Below, piece by piece: positions 46,067 through 50,957 of a stretch of DNA of 51,276 nucleotides (within the stretch, counting starts at the first letter, position 1; every line of letters begins with the position of its first letter). The stretch is from assembly GCA_945873085.1 (NCBI GenBank), contig CAMCCR010000003.1, forward strand, positions 1 through 51,276. The letters are read 5' to 3'. This stretch comes from Candidatus Kuenenia stuttgartensis (lineage in GTDB: Bacteria > Planctomycetota > Planctomycetia > Pirellulales > UBA1268). A model generated the notes under the pieces. That model was not told where the DNA came from and did no database searches. It saw nothing but the letters and a program-made list of their open reading frames with translations. Position numbers and translations under genes: made by a program.

Positions 46067-46741
46067 ATGAAGCTCCGTTCCGCCTTGCTGATCGCGTGCC
46101 TGATCGTGGTGCCTCTGCTGGCCATGTTCTCGCACAAAGTCCCGACCGCGACCCGGGCAGCGATCCGGGAACGCTTCTGGGACCCGATGATCAGGCCACT
46201 GGCGTCGGCCCTCGGCTTGGGTGCCACTTCCCCAACCAGCCCCGCCCCCCGGCAAGCCGCCGCCTCTCCGGTGGAGGAAGCCTTCCCGGGCCCACCGAGA
46301 GCGTTTGCCAGCAGCGGATCGGCTTCGACCGATATCGGGCCAGCGGCGGCCGATCCCCTCCAGCCTCTCCAAGCAACTCGGGCGACGGGCCTGCGCGAGC
46401 CCGATACGGCCATCGCTGGCAACACCCCGCCGCCGGCGATCCTCCTCGGCTCGGACGACTCGCTGCCGATCGGCGGGGCGACGGGCCGGGAATCGCTCGA
46501 GGCCCGCCTCCGGGCCCTCGGGGCCACAAGGATCGACTGGACACCGGGTCAGGGGGGCGACGGTCTCCATCGCTGCAGCTGCCGCATTCCCGCTGAACCT
46601 TCGGGTCAGCTTCACCGCATCTTCCAGGCAGCCGCCACCGACCCAGTGGCCGCGCTCGACAATCTCGTTGGCCAGGTCACGGCTTGGTCGATGCGGAGCG
46701 GGGGCACCGCAGCGAGCCCGGCGATGCCCCTGCAGCGCTGA
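46067..46741 (+). CDS. Hypothetical exported/membrane-anchored protein
   Basis: MKLRSALLIACLIVVPLLAMFSHKVPTATRAAIRERFWDPMIRPLA...; immediately upstream of the scpB-like gene. Confidence 0.6.
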   Translation: MKLRSALLIACLIVVPLLAMFSHKVPTATRAAIRERFWDPMIRPLASALGLGATSPTSPAPRQAAASPVEEAFPGPPRAFASSGSASTDIGPAAADPLQPLQATRATGLREPDTAIAGNTPPPAILLGSDDSLPIGGATGRESLEARLRALGATRIDWTPGQGGDGLHRCSCRIPAEPSGQLHRIFQAAATDPVAALDNLVGQVTAWSMRSGGTAASPAMPLQR

Positions 46742-46758
46742 TCGGGGGAGATCTCGCC

Positions 46759-47529
46759 ATGCTGCTCCAACGTCGGGCTTCGAATCGACTCCCCGACCTT
46801 TTCCAACGCCGAGCGGCATCCGGCCGGGGGCCTCGGCCCTGCCTCGCCCCCATCCGAAGGCAGCGTCTACTGACGACTCCCACCAGGCCCCCCGTGGGGC
46901 TGGCAGAGGCCGAACCGGGGCCTCACGCCCGTTCGGAGGAGCTGGCCCGTCTGGAGGCGGCCTTGTTCATCGCCCGCGAGCCGCTCTCCACACGACGGCT
47001 GGCAAAAATCGCCCGGCTCTCCGACGGCACCCGTGCCCGGGCACTCCTCCGGGAACTGGCTGCCGTTCAGGACGCCAGCGGCAGCGCCATCCGGGTCGAG
47101 CCGATCGCCGGCGGCTTCCAACTCCTCACCCGCTCACCGTTCGGCCCGTGGGTCCGCAGACTCCTGACGACACCGGCGGAAAACCGGCTGTCGGCGGCGG
47201 CACTCGAGACGCTGGCGATCGTGGCCTACCGTCAGCCGGTGACCCGGGCGGAAATCGAAGCCATTCGCGGGGTCGGGTGCGAGGAGATGCTGCGTCAACT
47301 CATGGAAAGGGATCTGGTCGCGGTCGGAGGGAGGAGCGAGGAACTTGGTCGTCCCAACGTCTACCAGACCACGAAGCGATTTCTGCGGGCCTTTGGGCTG
47401 TCCCGCATCGAGGATCTGCCCGACATTGGCCCGGTCACGACGCTCGACCCGACCGTCTCCCCTAACCCCGGCGGTCAGGAGCCCCCCGGCCCACCGGCAC
47501 CCGGCTCCCCCTCGTCCGAGCGCTCTTGA
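46759..47529 (+). CDS. scpB: Segregation and condensation protein B-like
   Basis: LARLEAALFIAREPLSTRRLAKIARL..., LSAAALETLAIVAYRQPVTRAEIEAIRGVGCEEMLRQLMERDLVAVGGRSEELGRPNVYQTTKRFLRAFGL. RBS-like GGGGGAG precedes ATG 46759. Confidence 0.88.
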   Translation: MLLQRRASNRLPDLFQRRAASGRGPRPCLAPIRRQRLLTTPTRPPVGLAEAEPGPHARSEELARLEAALFIAREPLSTRRLAKIARLSDGTRARALLRELAAVQDASGSAIRVEPIAGGFQLLTRSPFGPWVRRLLTTPAENRLSAAALETLAIVAYRQPVTRAEIEAIRGVGCEEMLRQLMERDLVAVGGRSEELGRPNVYQTTKRFLRAFGLSRIEDLPDIGPVTTLDPTVSPNPGGQEPPGPPAPGSPSSERS

Positions 47530-47900
47530 GCAATTTTTCATGCCCCTCGCCCCGCTTGCACTCCATCGAACCTGCGGCGACACTTTCCCGGTCCCGCGAC
47601 CGTGCTTCGGAAGCCCAGCCGTCCCCGGTTCACGAATTTTTTTCCGAAGGTTGGATGATTCCGCACGATCGGGTACAGAATTGTGCGAAGGAATCTGCCG
47701 ATACTCGGACGACTGCCCGGCAACATGCCCGATCCAACGCTTCTCACGGCGGGAAGCCCATCCGGGAATCATCGACGATTCACACCAACGGATACGCAGC
47801 GATGATGGCATCAACACCGACAACTCAACGTGGATCGTTATCGTCTGACCGTTCACCGTCCGTCGCAGGGCCTGTGAACAGACTCGAGGGAGGTTTTTCA

Positions 47901-48326
47901 GTGACCAGCGTTGCGAGCCCCAGGGGATCCCGAAGCGTGTTGAACTCCGACGTGTTTTGCTGGGATGAACTTCCCGATTTGCTCGCCGCCGAGGAGCTCT
48001 TCGAGATTGCCGGCAACCGCAACTCGACGTCGCCGATCGTCGGCAAGCAGGATGACGACGAGGACGATGACGACCTCGAGGATGACGACGACGATGATGA
48101 CGATGACGAGGAAGAAGACGATCTCGAGGACGACGACTGGGAAGAGGTTGAGGACGAGGACGAAGAAGAGGACGACGAAGAAGAGGAAGAGGACGAGGAA
48201 GAAGACGACGAAGAGGATGAAGAAGAAGGGGACGATGACGAGGAGTGGGAAGACGACGACGAAGAGTGGGATGACGAGGACGAAGAGGACGAAGACGAAG
48301 ACGAGGAAGAAGACGACGACGACTGA
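47901..48326 (+). CDS. Small protein with an extremely acidic Asp/Glu C-terminal tail
   Basis: GAGGGAGG Shine-Dalgarno-like site about 8 nt before GTG 47901; VTSVASPRGSRSVLNSDVFCWDELPDLLAAEELFEIAGNRNSTSPIVGKQ then about 90 residues nearly all D/E. Confidence 0.75.
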   Translation: MTSVASPRGSRSVLNSDVFCWDELPDLLAAEELFEIAGNRNSTSPIVGKQDDDEDDDDLEDDDDDDDDDEEEDDLEDDDWEEVEDEDEEEDDEEEEEDEEEDDEEDEEEGDDDEEWEDDDEEWDDEDEEDEDEDEEEDDDD

Positions 48327-48394
48327 CTTCCGCCACGCCTGATTCCGCCGTCATCCGCTCAAATATCGCGCGGTATCGCCGCCACAGCATTCAA

Positions 48395-48437
48395 GCGACC
48401 CTGGAGACGCTCAGCGTGTCTCCGGGGTCGCTTTTTT
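48395..48437 (+). terminator. Intrinsic terminator downstream of the acidic-tail gene
   Basis: GCGACCCTGGAGACGC-TCA-GCGTGTCTCCGGGGTCGC followed by TTTTTT. Confidence 0.88.
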
Positions 48438-50090: not shown

Positions 50091-50180
50091 GGAGAGGTGG
50101 CAGAGCGGTCGAATGCGCGTCTTTGCTAAAGACGTGTCCGGTCAAAAGCTGGACCGCGGGTTCGAATCCCGCCCTCTCCG
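50091..50180 (+). tRNA. tRNA-Ser (anticodon GCT)
   Basis: GGAGAGGTGGCAGAGCGGTCGAATGCG-CGTCTTTGCTAAAGACG-long variable arm-CGGGTTCGAATCCCGCCCTCTCCG. Confidence 0.95.
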
Positions 50181-50957
50181 TTTGGTGAAGAACGTCGAAG
50201 CGAATATGCCCTGTTTCCAGGGCTTCTTGAAAAGCGAGTCATTGTTGACCTCCGTGACTTTGCTGATCAACCACCAGCCCCGCGACCGCCGCGGGGTGAC
50301 TTTGCTGAAACTTTGCTGATGCCCCGCCGCCCCCGGGCGGGTTTGGCGGCACGCCTGGCGGCTCTCGGCCAACTGCTGTTTGGTCACCTGGGCCTCTTTG
50401 TCCGCGATGTGGACGTAATTTTTGAGCGCCTCCTCGTCGATGTGGCCGCCCCAGCGACGGAGGGTGAAAAAGTTCACCCCGCTGAGGACGGCGATCGTGC
50501 AGAAGGAGTGCCGGAACTTGTGGTTGGTGTCCTCGAGGCCGAGCTTCGCGAGCACGGTCGTAAGATAGGCCAGGATGTGGCGGTCGTTGGCGGGCTGGTT
50601 CGCGGTGGCGGCGGTGCCGTTCATCCGGTCGATCACCCATCGGCGGCGGCGGGGTAGGCCCCGAAGCATGGCGACGGCTCGGGGCGAGAGCGGCACGGCC
50701 CGCTGCTCGCCGTTCTTGGGCCCCCAGGGCCGGGCACCGGGCACAACCTCCTTCGGCCGGATATGGACGACGGGCGTTGGCCCGTCCAGGGTCAGATCGT
50801 CGTGCGTCAGGTGGACGACCTCGCCGATCCGCATGCCGGTCTCGGCCATCAGCAGGAACGCGGCCTTGTAGGGGCCCCTGGCTGCCTCCACGATCGCGTC
50901 GAGCTGCGCAAGCGTGGCGAGAGTCCCGCCCAGAAACGGCAGGGCCCAGGCCGACAC
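50142..50957 (-). pseudogene. Tyrosine recombinase/integrase, catalytic domain only (N-terminal domain missing), ORF running antisense into tRNA-Ser
   Basis: ETGMRIGEVVHL (Arg I), HKFRHSFC (HxxR), LRRWGGHIDEEALKNYVHI (His/Tyr). No core-binding domain upstream; the frame is closed by TGA near 51086. C-terminal RGRDSNPRSSF is antisense of the tRNA T-arm/acceptor. Confidence 0.7.

Follow-up and report, generated by a model that had tools for sequence, protein, structure and literature searches.

In the planctomycete order to which the window belongs (the window being the whole 51,276-nt stretch of DNA analyzed here), almost every surveyed genome encodes a hyperacidic protein directly downstream of scpB, the gene for a component of the machine that organizes bacterial chromosomes. 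The acidic tract has been fused to ScpB and separated from it repeatedly, and the free acidic protein appears to be selected throughout the order, as does, in many cases, its fusion to ScpB. Its position beside scpB, in many species within the ScpB reading frame and with a start signal of its own, suggests that the SMC complex has a negatively charged partner or regulator not described before. The reading we favor, to which we give just under even weight, is that it is a disordered polyanion belonging functionally to ScpB, a DNA-mimic-like modulator of SMC-ScpAB.

The gene in the window and its surroundings comprise the following features:

46684..47529, + strand: scpB, encoding the SMC-ScpAB kite subunit, the conserved upstream neighbor (PF04079, E = 6e-52; TIGR00281)
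47556..47586, + strand: second promoter-like site, TTGCACTC...ACACTTT (TTGCAC.. at 47556), conserved in the genus alignment
47651..47679, + strand: promoter-like site TTGGAT-N17-TACAGA, a conserved block in the genus alignment
47886..47893, + strand: Shine-Dalgarno site GAGGGAGG, ending 7 nt before the GTG; a GGAGG-type site is kept in relatives
47901..48326, + strand: hyperacidic protein gene, GTG start, 141 aa; start, head and tail all conserved
47901..48050, + strand: head, 50 aa, conserved in the window's family; predicted amphipathic helix at residues 21-40 (WDELPDLLAAEELFEIAGNR)
48051..48323, + strand: polyacidic tail, 91 aa, 92% Asp/Glu by composition; predicted disordered (AlphaFold2)
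48138..48149, + strand: WEEV motif, residues 80-83, the tail element best conserved across the order and invariant in the window-family alignment
48393..48437, + strand: intrinsic terminator, a hairpin at 48393-48433 followed by a T run

The original prediction, made from the letters of the window, described a head of roughly 50 residues followed by about 90 that are nearly all Asp or Glu, with a few Leu, Val, Trp and Gly. The composition bears this out: 84 of the 91 tail residues are acidic (45 Asp and 39 Glu), and the rest are three Trp, two Leu, one Val and one Gly. The computed net charge of the protein is about -87, and the computed pI of about 4.05 lies close to the calculator's lower limit. 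AlphaFold2 predicts a single helix at residues 21-40 (pLDDT about 63-75) in an otherwise unstructured chain (mean pLDDT 58); the model contains no DNA-like fold, and the extremely acidic protein is predicted to be disordered.

That prediction had also taken the gene's own ribosome-binding site and terminator as marks of a real gene, a view that its conservation across the family upholds. The terminator has an 18-bp stem with a dG of -35.6 kcal/mol (z = -8.4), and none of 200 shuffled sequences was equally good. Among 48 family upstream regions, the GATCGGGTACAGAAT-like block at 47651-47679 is found in 33, about two thirds, and the site at 47556-47586 recurs in 10. As these promoter-like sites lie within the interval between scpB and the acidic gene, the gene is probably monocistronic in the window. 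The 371-nt interval (47527-47900) carries genus-conserved blocks near 47555-47590, 47640-47715 and 47830-47875, and a regulatory 5' leader besides the promoters is possible; an Rfam scan of the acidic gene and its leader gave no score near any gathering cut-off.

In the window, the acidic gene begins 371 nt past the scpB stop and in a different frame. Throughout the family, scpB precedes it, and in-frame continuity with ScpB is absent, the acidic gene having its own start and the scpB stop intervening. The family gene order is RdgB/Ham1, a glycosyltransferase-like ORF, a PPIase/SurA-like gene, orf46067, scpB and the acidic gene, with a convergent M28 peptidase gene downstream. Farther along in the window, a tRNA-Ser(GCT) gene (50091-50180, + strand) overlaps the end of a tyrosine recombinase ORF (50142-50957, - strand; PF00589). 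Several members of the family have a relative of the integrase next to their M28 gene, so this recombinase may be a resident chromosomal one.

Conservation of the head among relatives, the lack of which had been named as grounds for rejecting the gene, was found: the head is present in 48 of 99 related genomes, every one in the window's own family, and some of the apparent absences are either contig ends, contigs often ending in or just after the acidic tract, or genomes that lack the contig with scpB. Four contigs (L048, L051, L052 and L055) stop inside the tract, which breaks short-read assemblies and so leads to undercounting. The head was also found in nine public planctomycete MAG contigs. 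Three MAGs titled 'Candidatus Kuenenia stuttgartiensis' (L003, L006 and L007) carry the gene at 80-94% head identity in the same gene order; they look mislabeled and are close relatives of the window's genus. All family members read out have a GTG start after a purine-rich ribosome site. The family alignment has invariant residues in both parts of the protein (among them F19, W21, E23, L27 and L33 in the head; W80-E81-E82-V83 in the tail). Compared with seven close relatives, the tail differs by synonymous or Asp-Glu changes, with at most five others per pair, which indicates constraint at the protein level.

A homology search with the head only, as had been proposed, recovered relatives within the window's family and proved misleading for the wider order. 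When 297 genomes of the order were searched with a head profile, 59 genomes of the window's family scored at E < 1e-12 and the remaining genomes gave nothing comparable; searches elsewhere returned weak matches at chance level (E about 0.01-1). The head pattern VFxWxELPxLxAAExLF is accordingly a feature of the window's family only.

As the head gave no lead outside the family, we turned there to the region downstream of scpB. The survey covered 98 genomes, mostly draft MAGs, from all 20 families of the order at roughly one or two per genus. An acidic ORF immediately follows scpB in 97 of the 98, a count that, like the others from this survey, treats related genomes as separate. Every other family of the order has a polyacidic ORF in its representative, nearly always with WEEV, and across the order 87 of the 97 loci contain WEEV or WDDV. 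Outside the window's family the head is wholly different; what persists is the WEEV-bearing acidic tail, the GTG start with its Shine-Dalgarno site, and the adjacency to scpB. Three features are thus common to the whole order: that adjacency, a polyacidic tail in which a central WEEV is followed by Trp anchors farther on, and a strong ribosome site that usually serves a GTG start. The proposal that the head is a specific docking module loses its footing here, and we dropped the head as the defining module of the protein. The neighboring scpB, which the original prediction missed, is the main clue.

In other orders of the class, as in other classes, the region downstream of scpB yielded no acidic WEEV gene. 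When a strict DNA pattern for WEEV was applied, it matched 15 of 39 genomes from the order versus 0 of 120 from other orders of the class; this pattern overlooks many true members, and the restriction to the order holds at that stringency. One surveyed genome, L256 (G159), has scpB without an acidic ORF in the 2.1 kb downstream, and a relaxed WEEV pattern gave no match in it.

Across the 97 loci, the acidic tract continues the open frame of ScpB without an intervening stop in 45 and is separate in 52, as judged from frame continuity in the assemblies; the gap in the separate loci is often just 0-60 nt, and stop and start sometimes overlap. On a FastTree phylogeny of ScpB domains, the two states have interchanged at least 15 times. 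An in-frame Shine-Dalgarno site with a start codon is present in 43 of the 45 fused linkers versus 5 of the 45 ScpB domains, the domains being about twice as long, which corresponds to 0.0162 per codon in linkers versus 0.0010 in domains.

The codons at the junction tell the same story. In an alignment built without regard to start codons, the junction column holds Val in 30 rows, encoded by GTG in all 30, and Met in two, both ATG. In the same ScpB domains, by comparison, GTG accounts for 153 of 346 Val codons (44%); codon usage is mixed in other conserved Val columns, and WEEV mostly has GTC for its Val. If the rows were independent, GTG in all 30 would have a chance of about 2e-11, a figure that relatedness weakens, although it does not weaken the Val/Met alternation. 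Given this contrast with Val codons elsewhere, the column has most likely been selected as a start codon. The retention of a nested Shine-Dalgarno site and start within fused ORFs implies that the free acidic product is probably made order-wide, with a ScpB-acidic fusion expected as an additional product in many lineages.

Fusion and adjacency of genes are the usual type of evidence for functional linkage, and here adjacency across the order together with repeated fusion points to a functional link between the acidic protein and ScpB. ScpA was found in 56 of 59 genomes, indicating that the SMC-ScpAB complex is present. The ScpB domain carries a charge of +5 to +7 in this order versus +0.9 to +3.4 elsewhere, without correction for phylogeny. 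Acidic C-terminal tails on ScpB itself in the sister lineages f22 and f24, detailed below, also speak for the link. Two ScpB paralogues occur in genomes of this order and in several others of the class (for example, G000:C3 and G000:C16), and in family f21 no ScpB match was obtained in 13 of 14 sampled genomes.

In our favored model, WEEV and the further Trp residues would anchor the acidic tail, which would occupy basic DNA-binding surfaces of SMC-ScpAB, with ScpB/kite or the SMC head/neck region as candidate targets. The fused form would act in cis and the free form in trans, and this occupancy would tune how the complex loads or releases DNA. The short amphipathic head, which differs between families, would help to place the tail. 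Precedent for such a modulator comes from phage T7, whose acidic DNA mimic gp5.9 blocks the DNA capture site on MukE, the kite subunit of MukBEF (PMC7617805). A DNA-mimic-like role is the best of the roles offered by the original prediction and now has a named candidate target. At the level of gene sequence, the link between the acidic protein and ScpB is established; DNA mimicry at that target is a further step, which we infer from the linkage. When a fusion of ScpB and tail was modeled with AlphaFold, the tail was unplaced (pLDDT below 50) and showed no docking on ScpB, a result that neither supports nor excludes contact. Against a ScpB-bound role, the free product is retained even where scpB ends far upstream, so action away from ScpB is possible, and in the window's family the gene lies 371 nt from scpB and is equipped with a terminator and promoter-like sites of its own. 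More tentatively, the system may represent a new class of SMC cofactor, in which one mRNA would yield ScpB with an acidic tail and, via the nested GTG, a free modulator; this would be an endogenous regulator of DNA-mimic type for a bacterial SMC complex, near-universal in one planctomycete order.

Such retention of the free product in every case would also be expected of a general polyanion of the nucleoid, or of a chaperone serving basic, HU/H1-like DNA-binding proteins, that is co-expressed with scpB through a shared role in chromosome compaction and does not act on SMC-ScpAB itself. In composition, the tail is similar to the disordered acidic stretches of histone chaperones, FACT among them. 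We consider this unlikely, as the repeated fusion to ScpB indicates a more specific partner and a histone-fold protein (PF00808) was detected in 0 of 59 relatives, the search having detected it in archaeal control genomes; the suggested role in histone binding accordingly lacks a histone-fold partner in these genomes.

Less probable still is a polyanion that is RNA polymerase delta-like or directed at the ribosome, or a cation or metal buffer, and that sits beside scpB through operon history. An acidic disordered tail is compatible with each of these, and the strong Shine-Dalgarno site and promoter-like sites of the window gene suggest good expression. The scpB linkage extends across the entire order, however, and neither Pfam nor NCBIfam contains a delta or other domain match, which leaves the delta-like role that had been put forward without domain support; simple charge buffering, moreover, would not need the conserved WEEV and Trp anchors.

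That the acidic tail is chiefly a solubility or disorder tail of ScpB acting in cis, with the free protein a split relic persisting by drift, we regard as improbable. It would fit the 45 fused loci, and ScpB proteins of the sister lineages f22 and f24 of the same class have acidic C-terminal tails of their own (up to 119 aa, net charge up to -68), as do a few ScpB proteins of other classes; the ScpB of f23, f25 and f26 and the second ScpB paralogue examined had none. It does not account for the selection of GTG and a Shine-Dalgarno site within fused ORFs, nor for the free gene that the window's family maintains with promoter-like sites and a terminator. Finally, an artefact or low-complexity drift without protein function, for which the low-complexity DNA and frequent assembly breaks might speak, is already contradicted by the conservation data: the head recurs in relatives, the GTG start and Shine-Dalgarno site are conserved, tail substitutions are nearly all synonymous or Asp-Glu, and TGG codons and WEEV are retained across families, so the tract is not an assembly or repeat artefact.

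Descriptions of bacterial SMC-ScpAB usually count three proteins. If our favored reading is correct, the acidic protein would be a lineage-wide fourth component, offering a handle on how SMC DNA loading is regulated and bearing on the unusual chromosome biology of planctomycetes. Sequence searches with the window protein against Pfam (E <= 0.001), NCBIfam and PDB returned no relative, and a literature search that included ScpB with Planctomycetes or Rhodopirellula found no such protein described, the one match being a review that mentions ScpB a single time. Polyacidic tails and DNA mimics are already known; no description was found of a hyperacidic protein linked to ScpB across an order and provided with a nested, apparently selected start.

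Among known systems, ScpB itself (PF04079/TIGR00281) is continuous with the acidic tract in the fused loci and adjacent to it in the window, but the window protein is a separate gene product without a ScpB domain, and such a tail lies outside the ScpB models of Pfam and NCBIfam. RNA polymerase delta (RpoE) of Firmicutes combines an N-terminal winged-helix (HARE-HTH) domain with an Asp/Glu-rich disordered C-terminal tail. The window protein likewise has an N-terminal part followed by such a tail, but it lacks the winged-helix domain (no Pfam match; one helix in the model) and is linked to scpB. Acidic disordered segments of FACT (Spt16/SSRP1) are described as partly replacing DNA on histones (PMC6629675, PMC9376062). 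FACT and similar histone chaperones thus share with our protein disordered acidic stretches of a kind that substitute for DNA on basic partners, whereas the window protein has no chaperone domain and no histone-fold partner was found. T7 gp5.9 (PMC7617805) is a folded coiled-coil dimer encoded by a phage; the window protein is chromosomal, almost purely Asp/Glu in its tail and predicted to be disordered save for one helix. Like gp5.9, it is acidic, and we propose that it acts likewise on the DNA-binding surface of an SMC kite subunit.
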